From Nannobrachium achirus (lineage: Eukaryota; Chordata; Actinopteri; Myctophiformes; Myctophidae), in NCBI GenBank assembly GCA_963921795.1, contig OY997649.1, positions 58,219,778 to 58,283,777 of the forward strand: a stretch of 64,000 nt of DNA, given 5' to 3'. The notes under the pieces are model-generated. The model saw nothing but the letters and a program-made list of their open reading frames with translations. It did no database searches and was not told where the DNA came from. Position 1 is the first letter of the stretch, and the number at the start of each line of letters is the position of its first letter. Positions 880 through 59,881 of the stretch are shown piece after piece. A program made the position numbers and the translations under genes.

Positions 880-1135
880 AAGAACTGGAATTATTATTGA
901 TAAATAGCAGATACACAAGCTCACCGCAGGAAGAGCTTGAAGATCTGCTTTTTGATTGTGATTTCTGCTTTGAATATATCTTTAAAGCGAACATTTGTAA
1001 CTCAAATATTTGCTTCTGGGCGGTCCCTGGAACAACATATTTTGAGACGGGTTTCCTTGGCCAATTATCTATAATTCTGGGGGTCCTTGACATGAAAAAC
1101 TTTGAGCACCTCTGACATAGCAACATGCGTTTTTC
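880..1135 (-). mobile_element. Partial hAT-a MITE (reverse copy)
   Basis: The body matches the hAT-a family seen complete at 18103-18661 and 50403-50926: a palindrome, then GCGAACATTTGTAACTCAAA, 'ttgcttctggg..gtccctggaac', and 'catgaaaaactttgagcacctctgacatag'-like sequence. Both terminal regions are missing, so this is a truncated internal fragment. The short open frames on both strands here are shadows of the repeat. Confidence 0.7.
902..953. repeat. HP palindrome, degenerate
   Basis: The left arm AAATAGCAGATACACAAGCTC and right arm GAGCTTGAAGATCTGCTTTTT are inverted copies with a short centre. The palindrome sits inside the hAT-a fragment. Confidence 0.7.
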
Positions 1136-1140
1136 AAAAA

Positions 1141-1970
1141 AACGTAGATGGATTTAGAATACATTTATAGAATCGGGTCAAAGGACTAATACTCTCTTTA
1201 CACCACTGGTGTAGGTAAACTTAGATTTACTGTAGAGGTGATACTGTTATAAGGACTAATTAGGCTGGGGGGCCCTGAGCCTGCTGAATGGCCCTTGGGA
1301 GCCTCCACTTGAACGCTAGCATCCCTATTCTGCTGGGGAAATTATAGGGGGAACATAAGCTCACAACCTGACCTATACGGTTGAACACCCTGCCGACCCT
1401 GGTCAGCTAAGTATTCATTTACAAATGACATGTTCAGACTGGCAGCCCAAATCAGATGTTTGGCTTATCCAGAATGCAGTCAGATTGGTATTTTGCAGTC
1501 TGAACATCCATCTATCTGTCAGTCAGTCAGTCAGTCAGTCAGTCAGTCAGTCAGTCAGTCTAGCTAGCTATACAGATCCATCTAGAATATTTTGTAAAAG
1601 TAAAATGGCTTCTATAATATAATTCAAAATGTGAAACTTTCATGTATTCTATAGATGCATTGCACATGCCGTGAAATATTCTAAACCTTTTTTGTTAAAA
1701 ACTTTACATTTTTTCTATTTGAAGATATTACAATATTACACGAGACCACTCAAAACAAGGATTTATAATAGAGACATGTCAATCGTCAAAGTCAGAGTTA
1801 CTTGAAGTCCAGTTACGTAAACTTCCAGTGGGAAGTTTACACAGTCAGTTATGATTTGGGGTGCTATGGCATCTGCATGCTTTTTTTTGTAGATGAATCG
1901 GTATATCTATCAAACACCTGACTGTATCGCCTGTGATGGTTCTGAAGTGTGCAGTTCCACAGAATGAGCT
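1141..1970. repeat. Unassigned AT-rich DNA with (AGTC)n microsatellite at 1518-1560
   Basis: About ten uninterrupted AGTC units are present at 1518-1560. The rest has no gene-like signal. Confidence 0.6.
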
Positions 1971-2562
1971 TTGACTAAGATAGAAACACTAAATGATCGT
2001 CCTCTCCTCAGTATGTTAAAGGGGTACTGTCACTTTAAAAAGTGATCTTAAAACATGAGTTAATATTTTTATGATGCCATTGTGGGAATGTGCAATTATA
2101 AGCCAATCAAATTAATTGACTGTACTTCGACTACTTACTGTACTGGTCAGCTGTTGTTGGGGGGCGAGGGGCAGATTACACTGTGACATGAGTTAGACCG
2201 TTTTCAGAGATACCACGTGACCTACTATTTCATACTATTATAATTTCGGGGCGTGTCAGCGGGCCTTTAAGATAGAAACACAAAATGATCGTCCTCTCCT
2301 CAGTATGTTAAGATAGAAACACTAAATGAAAGTACTCAGTATGTCTGTAACACTAAATGATCGTCTCCTCAGTATGTCTGTCCAGATAGTAACACTAAAT
2401 GATCGTCTCCTCAGTATGTCTGTCCAGATAGTAACACTAAATGATAGTCCTCTCCTCAGTATGTCTGTCCAGATAGAAACACTAAATGATCGTCCTCTCC
2501 TCAGTATGTTAAGATAGAAACACTAAATGATAGTCCTCTCCTCAGTATGTCTGTCCAGCTGA
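1971..2562. repeat. Minisatellite, ~38-43 bp unit, split by a MITE
   Basis: The unit core is ACACTAAATGATCGTCC followed by TCTCCTCAGTATGT and an optional CTGTCCAGATAG. One unit lies at 1977-2015 and six or seven more at 2271-2560. Unit length varies because TCCTC and CTGTCCAG blocks are gained or lost. The array is interrupted at 2020-2266 by a TTAA-flanked insertion. The 63-aa frame in the array is an artefact of the repeat. Confidence 0.85.
2020..2266. mobile_element. TTAA-flanked MITE (piggyBac-like target)
   Basis: The insertion is flanked by TTAA at 2016-2019 and 2267-2270. The uninterrupted minisatellite unit reads GTATGTTAAGATAG, giving the empty site. The ends AGGGGTACTGTCAC and GTGTCAGCGGGCCT form imperfect inverted repeats. 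TTAA duplication is typical of piggyBac-group elements; the class assignment is inference from the target site. No transposase is present. A relative lies at about 47960-48236. Confidence 0.7.
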
Positions 2563-2719
2563 GAGGTTGCTAGGTAACAGCGTTAATCATGATGCCGTGA
2601 ATCGGTAAGCATTCAGCGTCACATTATGTAATCTGGATTGTTGGTTCACTCTGTTCCTCCATTCTCCCGGTCTTAAATTAACAGTGAGAAGAAATGGTCC
2701 ACGTTCAGTCAATCAGAAA

Positions 2720-3197
2720 CAGTGGTGTAAAGTAACTAAGTAGATTTACTTAAGTACTGTACTTAAGTACAATTTTGAGGCATTTGTACTTGAGTATTTC
2801 CAATTTCCAATTCTTTCACTTCTACTCCACTACATCTGGGATCCAAATATTGTACTTTTACTCCACTAAAATTATTTGGAAACTTTAGTTACTTTGCAGA
2901 TATACCTGTACATTATAATATCACAAAACATATAACGACTTTAACCCTATTTTATACCTACCGTAGGCTATTTGAAAATAGCTGATCTACAAGCTCACAA
3001 CGCGTTGCACCGTGACGCGTTGTGAGCTTGTATATATACATTATAATATCACAAAATATATAACGACATTTTGATGCCAACACTTTCATACTTTTACTCT
3101 AGTACATTTTGAATTCCGGACTTTTTACTTGTATTTCTATACTGCAGTATTGATACTTTTACTTGAGTTAAAAATGTGAGTACTTTTTCCACCACTG
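2720..3197. mobile_element. hAT-b MITE (CAGTGGTG ends)
   Basis: It starts CAGTGGTGTAAAGTAACTAA and ends TTTTTCCACCACTG. The flanks ATCAGAAA (2712-2719) and ATCGGAAG (3198-3205) agree at 6 of 8 positions, consistent with an aged 8-bp hAT duplication. The internal 'tactttactccact' style repeats are diagnostic of the family here. It contains an HP palindrome at 2971-3037. It is non-autonomous, with no coding capacity. Other copies lie at 5256, 23296, 33002, 40050 and 47140. Confidence 0.75.
2971..3037. repeat. HP palindrome
   Basis: Left arm GATCTACAAGCTCACAACGC; right arm GCGTTGTGAGCTTGTATATA. The centre is GTTGCACCGTGAC. It is nested in the hAT-b MITE. Confidence 0.85.
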
Positions 3198-3344
3198 ATC
3201 GGAAGAAAGCACCCATTTATCAGCTCACATTTAATAGTGTTTCGGTTCCAATTCTGTCTGCTCATTCTTTGTGTCATCACTTCAGTGTTTATCTTGTGTA
3301 TCCTGAGTGAGATCTCTCTCCTTATTGAATACAAATTAATTGAA

Positions 3345-3425
3345 TGGATTATGTTTATTAAAGGGCATGGAGAGATAGGCAGACCCCTTGTTACGCAGCA
3401 AACACTGATAGCAATGATTGACTGC
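3345..3425. repeat. Dispersed repeat D, copy 1
   Basis: The segment 'tttattaaagggcatggagagataggcagacccc' then 'gttacgcagcaaacactgatagcaatga' recurs in diverged form at about 32312-32372 and 45975-46052. The element family is not identified. Confidence 0.55.
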
Positions 3426-59214: not shown

Positions 59215-59287
59215 GCCCCGGTGGCCTAATGGATAAGGCACTGGCCTCCTAAGCCAGGGATTGTGGGTTCGAGTCCCATCTGGGGTG
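59215..59287 (+). tRNA. tRNA-Arg(CCT), pair 4
   Basis: Identical to pair 2 (T stem GTGGG/CCCAT with one G-T). Confidence 0.95.
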
Positions 59288-59293
59288 GCTGAT

Positions 59294-59365
59294 AGCAGAG
59301 TGGCGCAGCGGAAGCGTGCTGGGCCCATAACCCAGAGGTCGATGGATCGAAACCATCCTCTGCTA
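59294..59365 (+). tRNA. Initiator tRNA-Met(CAT), pair 4
   Basis: Full initiator consensus, as in pair 2. GCTGAT linker. Confidence 0.97.
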
Positions 59366-59371
59366 GTAAGG

Positions 59372-59375
59372 TTTT
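59372..59375 (+). terminator. Pol III TTTT terminator, pair 4
   Basis: T4 in GTAAGGTTTTAAAC, a context shared by pairs 4-7 and different from the GCACTGTTTT of pairs 1-2. Confidence 0.75.
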
Positions 59376-59480
59376 AAACTAGAACAGTACAATCCTCAGA
59401 GAACAGATCTTTGCCAACTTGGCCATCCATCCAGCTGTCTGCCCAGTGATGTGTCAGTCATGGGCTGCAGCCATCAAGAC

Positions 59481-59881
59481 TAGGGCTGTCACAATTATTA
59501 CATAATCGTCTAATCGTGATTATTTGACATTATCGCAATTATTTTGTCATAATCGTCATAATCGTGAATGTTGAAAAATGTCAGAAATAGTGGAAATAGC
59601 AGATCTACAAGCTCACAACGCGTCGCATCGCAACGCGTTGTGAGCTTGTAGATCGGCTATTTCCACTATCAATGTTATTTTTTAAAAAGTAAGTTGTCAA
59701 ATATGTCAGTAATGTATTTGTATATTTAGGTTATGTGTCATATCTACCATATGCAACTTCAAAGCCTAAAAGCCAAACAGAAATGTAATTATCAACGACA
59801 AATACACAATTAAATCGTTAATCGCCAATTATTTGAGTGACAATTAATCGTCATGTAAAATGTCATATCGTGACAGCCCTA
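59481..59881. mobile_element. hAT-like MITE in spacer 4, carrying an HP palindrome
   Basis: TAGGGCTGTCACAATTATTA and CATATCGTGACAGCCCTA are inverse ends. ATCAAGAC at 59473-59480 is repeated at 59882-59889, and other spacers supply the empty site CCATCAAGACAGG. 401 bp, rich in ATAATCG. Confidence 0.95.
59587..59669. repeat. HP palindrome, 37-nt arms, host-specific ends
   Basis: ATAGTGGAAATAGCAGATCT.. and ..GGCTATTTCCACTAT match at 36 of 37 positions around CGCATCGCA. The outer ATAGTGGA/TCCACTAT is unique to this host. The core is ACAACGCGT/ACGCGTTGT. Confidence 0.97.

Follow-up and report, generated by a model that had tools for sequence, protein, structure and literature searches.

A 71-bp palindrome shared by DNA transposons with different ends in the genome of Nannobrachium achirus

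Results

A palindromic unit of 71 bp, abbreviated here as HP, recurs throughout a stretch of 64,000 nucleotides of Nannobrachium achirus (Actinopteri; Myctophidae; GenBank assembly GCA_963921795.1, contig OY997649.1, positions 58,219,778 to 58,283,777 of the forward strand), which we refer to as the window, and it lies inside transposons whose terminal inverted repeats (TIRs) differ from one another. The interpretation that we favour, tentatively and at a little less than an even chance, is that HP is a discrete passenger hairpin of non-autonomous DNA transposons, which enters new carriers by hairpin-templated copying. The analysis covered one species: the genome searched comprised 1,658,514,493 bases in 564 contigs, and the set of copies was drawn from the window and 49 of 50 sampled loci (locus L028 was dropped, as it overlaps L027).

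The palindrome is a discrete unit

The initial annotation had described a recurrent palindrome in the window, and this was borne out in two ways. The 20-nt arm core (TAGCAGATCTACAAGCTCAC) has seven exact matches in the window and 58 at up to four mismatches, as against none in the reversed window. A profile hidden Markov model of the arm, built from seven palindromes and then iterated on the window, gave 73 arms at E≤1, of which 62 scored at least 12 bits and 46 at least 20 bits; sequence reversed without complementing served as the negative control and contained no arm match of at least 12 bits in 355,020 bases of sampled sequence. At 14 bits or more, the window contains 16 two-armed and 26 half copies, and when weak arms are included (E≤1) the figures are 23 two-armed copies and 27 single arms. 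The earlier count of about 34 two-armed copies and a dozen halves agrees with these results in its total (about 46) and departs from them in its split. Only the tRNA (transfer RNA) model among the Rfam models run on the window matched at gathering scores; no Rfam match to HP was found.

In the window and the 49 loci together, we found 172 HP copies at 14 bits or more, 81 of which are two-armed. The consensus consists of a 34-nt arm (AAAATAGCAGATCTACAAGCTCACAACGCGTCGC), a 3-nt loop and a second 34-nt arm; it starts with AAAATAG (AAAATAGC) and finishes with CTATTTT (GCTATTTT). The length is 71 bp in 48 of the two-armed copies and 72 bp in 7, while 22 copies measure 47–66 bp and lack part of the middle; the remaining lengths, 68, 73 and 82 bp, are single or paired cases. 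The span of 50–85 bp first given for the palindrome did not hold, as full-length copies are 71 bp long.

Conservation was scored with one vote per flank group on 181 arms reaching the outer end (45 groups). The information at arm bases 1 and 2 was 0.85 and 1.63 bits, respectively, and outside the unit it was 0.42 bits at the first base, where G received half of the votes, and no more than 0.23 bits at the other 19 bases scored. The selection of arms that reach the outer end boosts conservation inside the unit without lowering conservation outside it. The ends of HP are sharp across the 45 flank groups, and the palindrome is real and forms one discrete unit. Half copies look like remnants: a degenerate second arm is kept in 38 of the 89 examined (of 91 in all), compared with 6 of 89 in the control.

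Genome-wide, the 34-nt arm occurs 64,648 times at up to two mismatches (32,427 forward and 32,221 reverse; reversed control, 0), and two exact 15-nt arms separated by 2–32 nt occur at 24,744 places, each seen on both strands (control, 0). A random sample of 20 stretches of 10 kb contained 63 arms of at least 20 bits in 177,764 readable bases, or 3.5 per 10 kb, and extrapolation from these stretches suggests about 5.9×10^5 arms in the genome (3–9×10^5). As a cross-check, the genome counts imply 6.9 arms at up to two mismatches and 2.7 exact two-arm copies in a sample of this size, and 3 and 1, respectively, were observed. The window is about twofold richer in arms than the random stretches (7.2 versus 3.15 per 10 kb, or 3.5 per readable 10 kb), with a wide bootstrap range for the random-stretch density (1.7–5.7 per 10 kb). 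HP copies sit on chromosome-sized contigs, for example one of 90 Mb. A viral or prokaryotic origin was considered and is unsupported: the exact arm pattern had no match in viral and genome contig collections, a result with little bearing on animals.

Carriers of the unit

Scans for TIRs and target-site duplications (TSDs) placed HP copies in elements with 8-bp TSDs and 11 different TIRs. We represented the carrier families by 12 elements, designated F1–F10, F12 and X. Seven of these TIRs are CAGTGTTGTTTTTGAC (F3), TAGGGATGGGACGATA (F4), TAGGGCATTAACGA (F5), CAGGGGCGTCACAAGG (F6), CAGGGACGTGCTGGCC (F8) and CAGGGGTCAGCAACCC (F9), all of the 8-bp TSD type, and CAGGGGTCTTCAATGT (F10), for which the 8-bp TSD has one mismatch. 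An 8-bp TSD and matching TIRs, as found in these carriers, characterize hAT-type miniature inverted-repeat transposable elements (MITEs). Short TSDs were at a disadvantage in the first scan; TA, TNA and TTAA were admitted in a second. The second scan placed 28 of the 172 copies in elements with 8-bp TSDs (5 of these assignments, copies 34, 42, 71, 72 and 80, are doubtful by eye), 4 in elements with 9-bp TSDs, 10 with TA and 2 with T.A; inner inverted repeats, not element ends, seem to account for several of those with TA or 9 bp. PIF/Harbinger elements are marked by a 3-bp TWA TSD and a matching TIR. One element only, at 473–1905 of locus L043, has the TIR GGGCGGATTCACACTGC and TAA on both sides, with HP inside, and by its TSD and TIR it is a carrier of PIF/Harbinger type.

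The association with such elements was also seen when they were sought irrespective of HP. In the random stretches, TSDs and TIRs defined 17 hAT-like elements, 8 of which contained the arm; with the window added the count is 12 of 21, including one at window 14584–16329 that is spurious, because its “TIR” falls in HP.

With HP masked, blastn comparison of the 12 representatives at E≤1e-4 linked F2, F8 and F9 to one another and detected no other match. In the other nine, HP was the only shared part detected, a pattern resembling that of the CMITEs, in which an internal region is common to MITEs with different TIRs. Several contexts remain where HP alone is common to the carriers. The hosts had been described as unrelated, which holds for these nine at this threshold and fails for F2/F8/F9 and, as described below, for F1/F6 and F7/F8, which are not independent. 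The accompanying claim, that the spread of one host is not enough to explain the palindrome, stands, because the ends and length of HP are constant in otherwise unmatched carriers and a PIF/Harbinger-type carrier is among them. On the other side of the unit's history, 157 of the 172 copies fall in one flank-linked group, and from these shared flanks we infer that the copy number of HP is mostly due to amplification of the carriers.

Two unusual arrangements were noted among the sampled loci. The 553 bp at 1332–1884 of L027 constitute a long palindrome that contains simple repeats and one HP in each arm, that is, a palindrome of palindromes. Positions 1642–3007 of L022 form a 1.37-kb element with inverted ends that match at 20 of 20 positions (AAAAGATAATGCCACAACAG; longer by eye, TTGCTCTCTAAAAAGATAATGCC) and a decayed HP inside.

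Covariation between the arms

In 55 copies of 70–72 bp, the same change was present on both arms in 85 cells, versus 33.8 (standard deviation 6.8) when right arms were dealt among the copies (0 of 2000 shuffles). Changes on one arm only were found in 250 cells, and different changes on both arms in 14. A separate alignment of 48 copies, 45 of them distinct, gave two-sided changes in 80 cells, versus 32.0 (standard deviation 4.1) when shuffled (0 of 500), and slid structures gave 12–24. The paired classes of centre reported earlier were recovered in this alignment, in which both-sided changes occurred at column pairs 26–46, 30–42, 31–41 and 33–39 in 11, 14, 12 and 14 of the 45 distinct copies, respectively.

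The symmetry extends slightly beyond the unit. The mean run of symmetric bases outside its tips was 2.38, versus 1.14 when shuffled (the maximum of 500 shuffles was 2.31), and palindromic tips of 3–9 bp are present in F1, F3, F4, F5, F7 and F8 and absent in F6 and X. Mirrored changes distinguish the carrier families from one another. Private changes within four families, by contrast, were mirrored in only 1 of 35 cells in F1, 3 of 21 in F8, 0 of 13 in F3 and 5 of 41 in F6 (9 of 110 in total). This rarity indicates that the two arms were made alike no later than the founding of a family, and not during residence in it.

Entry, loss and exchange of flanks

Among 64 copies tested for TSDs, direct repeats matching at 7 of 7 positions were found in 3, versus 2.85 with shuffled partners, and best repeats matching at 6 of 7 in 10, versus 17.25. 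HP itself lacks the 8-bp TSD of hAT MITEs. The tip motif of hAT TIRs is of the YARNG type; the bases just outside AAAATAGC differ by family (TTTG, GCTG, CCAA, TGTG) and do not include the conserved terminal bases of hAT elements.

The comparison of filled with empty hosts, which had been proposed at the outset, located HP-less copies of F1, F3 and F4, with no clean boundary and with duplications at chance level. F4 has 49 HP-less and 1125 filled sites; the filled sites lie between two copies of ACATTTG, a single copy of which is present in the 9 of 49 HP-less sites that read GGAACATTTGATAGAGAGTG, the rest being assorted. F3 has 18 HP-less and 628 filled sites, with slightly different left anchors; its flanks are CAGGTGT and CAAGTGT, and 1 of the 18 HP-less sites reads GCTCTCAAGTGTAAAATC, again with one copy. 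In F1, 15 of 43 HP-less copies (hand count) read GGCTATTTTCAAACATTTTG, which is a joint between the flank GGCTATTT and identical letters in the HP arm. Most HP-less copies of F3 and F4 look like later deletions. The joints fit slippage across the hairpin, and the same data also allow ancestral empty sites.

Loss of the middle is common in F4, in which 28 of 60 copies with known letters are at least 7 bp below the commonest length of 126, with the middle reduced (by hand). In yeast, the Mre11 complex is reported to attack hairpins whose loops are shorter than 9 nt (PMC8053094). By analogy, such an attack could be one way in which the middle of HP was lost.

One locus joins the flanks of different carriers at HP. 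The left flank of the copy in L026 is that of F3 (82–87% identity over more than 200 bp), and its right flank is that of L037 (94.7%, 76 bp). L043 and L021 share the left flank of L037, but on the right they match one another and differ from L037. With exact anchors, the genome contains 98 combinations of the X left flank with the Y right flank, 628 of the F3 left with the F3 right flank, and a single combination of the F3 left with the Y right flank, namely L026 itself. This joint indicates that carriers can be fused to one another at HP.

Evaluation of the favoured interpretation and its alternatives

If HP enters carriers by hairpin-templated copying, DNA synthesis at a broken or gapped carrier would switch into an HP hairpin elsewhere, copy it and return, with the ends of the patch set by the ends of the hairpin. 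Snap-back copying would even out parts of the arms and would sometimes lengthen the palindrome into the flank by a few bp. HP would then be multiplied by the transposases of its carriers, and its copies would decay through slippage and through loss of the middle. The lack of a TSD, the mirrored changes, the palindromic tips and the exchange joint would all be explained by synthesis of this kind, although none of them proves it. Template switching, one of the routes suggested in the initial annotation, is thus our preferred, conjectural route of entry. The very small mobile unit suggested beside it agrees with the constant ends and length across carriers; movement itself was not seen.

Several observations weigh against the favoured interpretation. 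At arm position 9 (n = 81), the two arms read A/C in 30 copies, A/T in 13 and A/A in 29 (21 of these in F6), and the A/C difference recurs in F1, F3, F4, F5, F7 and F8; F6 has a fixed arm difference at position 13. In the alignment of 45 distinct copies, pair 9–63 is unpaired in 26 and pair 13–59 in 15. Such differences imply that both arms were inherited, with patchy conversion, and the difference at position 9 rules out that the entire palindrome is rebuilt from a single arm whenever HP jumps. The shuffle controls take no account of kinship among copies, and part of the mirrored-arm signal is therefore shared ancestry. Neither the comparison of filled and HP-less sites nor the TSD test revealed a clean-boundary insertion or a pre-insertion site, and carrier X, searched with exact anchors, gave no HP-less sites. 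The joint in L026 may be the product of ordinary ectopic recombination. Finally, F2 (window 10192–10573), F8 (L006) and F9 (L003) represent a single core under three different TIRs: they have 106–113 bp in common on one side of HP, and F8 and F9 a further 32 bp on the opposite side. Extension from the end of the unit scored 9.2 for F1 with F6 and 8.5 and 9.9 for F7 with F8, above the 99% point of the single-pair null (95% and 99% points, 4 and 6); F4 with F10 scored 5.0, between these points, and the two are alike by eye over about 45 bp. Because carriers share cores, independent entries are fewer than TIR families.

These shared cores are the basis of the main rival, which we consider unlikely on balance and still worth serious weight. 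It holds that HP never moved alone: a few ancestral cores, of which HP is the conserved middle part, were nested or recombined into hAT-type elements with different TIRs, and the rest of these cores decayed. The common stretch of F2, F8 and F9, the extension scores (weaker for F4 and F10) and the exchange of flanks at HP all agree with it. So does the impression, by eye, that the F2/F8/F9 core has inverted ends of its own (like GTCGYTGTCGGGYGGAAACC), which would make the shared module larger than HP. However, no sequence outside HP was found in common among the other nine representatives at the threshold used, and conservation drops within 1–2 bases of the unit ends in the 45 flank groups, whereas the decay of a core is expected to fade gradually.

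A second alternative, which we judge improbable, treats HP as a single-strand hairpin transposon of the nucleus that an HUH-type enzyme, such as a Helitron or Helentron Rep, mobilises in trans in the way proposed for REPINs. Constant ends, no excess of TSDs and a fixed length with a variable yet pairing centre agree with this, as do the recurrent stem mismatch at position 9 and the remnant half copies. The genome has at least 150 matches to Helitron_like_N (150 of 245 candidates scored), counted irrespective of the location of HP; by eye most lie in frames of more than 1,000 residues and few contain stops, and no match was found in 14 control genomes. These data suggest recent Helitron-type activity in the genome. 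On the other hand, Helitrons begin with TC at the 5′ end and terminate in CTRR at the 3′ end, with a hairpin near the latter, and HP (AAAATAGC...GCTATTTT) has no termini of this type. Mobilisation by an HUH enzyme also predicts no preference for DNA transposons, and HP is common in hAT-like elements of the random stretches. In a bolder form, to which we attach the same low probability, HP would be a vertebrate nuclear counterpart of REPINs that moves as single-stranded DNA, perhaps by means of a Helitron-type HUH enzyme, lands preferentially in DNA transposons and is amplified by their transposases, a parasite of parasites without a gene or TIR. As a separate observation, many of the Helitron_like_N domains lie in open frames of 1,400–3,100 residues.

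The hairpin might instead be useful to MITEs and be kept because it raises their transposition, for example by bringing the ends together. Its roughly central position in several carriers and its frequency in the hAT-like elements of the random stretches suit this proposal, but private arm mutations are rarely compensated, middle-less copies are common (22 of 81) and the arrival of the same sequence in unrelated carriers is left unexplained, so that we find it very improbable. Least probable of all is that HP is itself a miniature hAT element with an 8-bp TSD and a short TIR, an idea raised by the F4 and F3 flanking repeats (ACATTTG and CARGTGT), present in single copy at 9 of 49 and 1 of 18 HP-less sites, and withdrawn because the general TSD test was at chance and the F1 joints show that slippage between chance repeats also yields single-copy sites, the outer bases moreover varying by family.

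Copies and other features of the window

All arms in the window were placed with the arm profile. The first 71-bp copy (2975–3045) lies in an F1 carrier (2720–3197, + strand; TIR CAGTGGTGTAAAGTAA; imperfect TSD with 2 mismatches), which we take to be Tol2/Angel-like, and a second (5493–5563) has an F1-like left flank and a CpG-decayed centre. The copy at 10304–10374, with arms AAGCACAC and centre CGCCTCGC, lies in the F2 carrier (10192–10573, + strand; TIR CAGTGTTTCTCAACC; TSD GGGTAGGT), the right flank of which is common to F8 and F9. Five 71-bp copies belong to F6: 14561–14631, of centre class GCGCGGCAC, 18497–18567, 42679–42749, which contains the top-scoring arm of the window, 43010–43080 and 50784–50854. 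Others are found at 16315–16385, at 42201–42271 with divergent flanks, at 45671–45741 with an F10-like left flank, and at 59593–59663, where the outer bases are GAAATAGC/GCTATTTC and the carrier is F7 (59481–59881, + strand; TIR TAGGGCTGTCACAATT; TSD ATCAAGAC).

Two-armed copies with a shortened middle are located at 14148–14205 (58 bp), 14863–14909 (47 bp, F6), 18200–18251 (52 bp, F6) and 39107–39157 (51 bp, F5). The F6 copies at 42010–42075 and 42521–42581 (61 bp) and the 59-bp copy at 43671–43729, in an F10-type carrier, are also two-armed. One arm is weak or reduced in five further copies: the right arm is weak at 901–954 and degenerate at 4998–5060, the second arm is reduced at 16954–17009 (palindrome at 16970–17009), and the left arm is weak at 22778–22848, where the flanks are of F5 type, and very weak at 54028–54098.

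Half copies on the minus strand lie at 8135–8163, 11367–11398 (F6 class), 12759–12776 (F10-like flank), 30543–30561 (F1-type flank) and 49939–49970 (F5-type). Those on the plus strand lie at 19897–19927, 25351–25372 (in an F4-type carrier), 26584–26614 (in the F12 carrier at 26513–27171, + strand; TIR CAGGGACGTGCACA; TSD ATAATGAC), 28597–28625 (F10-type carrier), 46700–46729, 47277–47307, 48961–48992 and 50475–50506 (F6).

Other features of the window were also noted. The region 54242–63108 is a tRNA-bearing satellite, in which 14 tRNA matches, most of them paired about 79 bp apart, lie within arrays of 32/43-bp units (e.g. TGACTCCCTACTGCCTTATGCAGCCTTATTAC). At 48071–48149 there is an AT-rich, near-perfect 79-bp palindrome with 39-bp arms and a 1-nt loop, without HP arms. 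The region 51646–52732 contains inverted and direct repeats of about 100–200 bp, mostly 91–95% identical, and a 78-bp hairpin at 52186–52263. An open frame of 246 residues on the minus strand (36726–37463) presumably corresponds to the end of a long interspersed nuclear element (LINE) reverse transcriptase, which it resembles.

Comparison with known systems

The ends of MITEs usually define their families, and HP crosses such boundaries, including a superfamily boundary, at very high copy number. To our knowledge, mobile hairpins are known only from organelles and bacteria. Among the titles and abstract starts found by searches of the PMC literature, not all directed at this point and outside which most subscription papers lie, we found no discrete nuclear animal hairpin common to transposon superfamilies, and 15 letters of the HP arm had no match in that literature. 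If HP enters carriers through the copying of hairpins at breaks, every carrier family would document one event, the source of chimeric MITEs would become testable across species, and mobile hairpins would extend to the animal nuclear genome.

Among elements with inverted-repeat structure, Galileo and other foldback elements have variable, recombined forms, are large and possess their own transposase family; HP, in contrast, is neither large nor equipped with a transposase family of its own. The Angel and other short inverted-repeat elements of teleosts, reportedly described by Izsvak et al. in 1999, are said to have stem-loop potential. That stem-loop is formed by the element's own long inverted repeats, whereas HP is short and lies within several elements that differ from one another. 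Compensatory changes are described, in the cited passages, for two Angel copies in long non-coding RNAs (PMC3636048). Part of the pattern is also seen in the CMITEs of Acropora, in which, according to the passages cited, the internal region is more conserved than the TIRs and a link to piggyBac-like elements exists (PMC2872659); in both cases an internal region is common to MITE families with different TIRs. The cited CMITE text does not contain the word hairpin, whereas HP is a discrete palindrome that spans hAT-type and Harbinger-type carriers.

Hairpin elements of mitochondria and plastids resemble HP more fully. As far as the cited passages go, those of sponge organelles measure tens of bp, are dispersed and show complementary substitutions and incomplete single-arm copies (PMC2800124). 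Organellar palindromic repeats of Volvox include nested palindromes, and their nuclear copies are called inert transfers (PMC2670323); Allomyces-type organellar hairpins are described as lacking flanking duplications (PMC2800124, PMC2670323). HP is likewise short, dispersed and compensated, with half copies and no excess of TSDs. It differs from these elements in its location, on nuclear chromosomes and inside DNA transposons, and in having one fixed full length and an estimated 3–9×10^5 arms.

REPINs are described in the passages cited as having two conserved inverted ends, a variable but pairing middle of set length, compensatory changes and singlets that are remnants (PMC3116915). HP has the same plan, with two inverted conserved ends and a pairing middle of set length. 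REPINs are bacterial, extragenic and associated with RAYT tyrosine transposases according to the same passages, whereas HP is carried by the transposons of a eukaryote. The nearest analogues of HP are the organellar hairpin elements and the bacterial REPINs.

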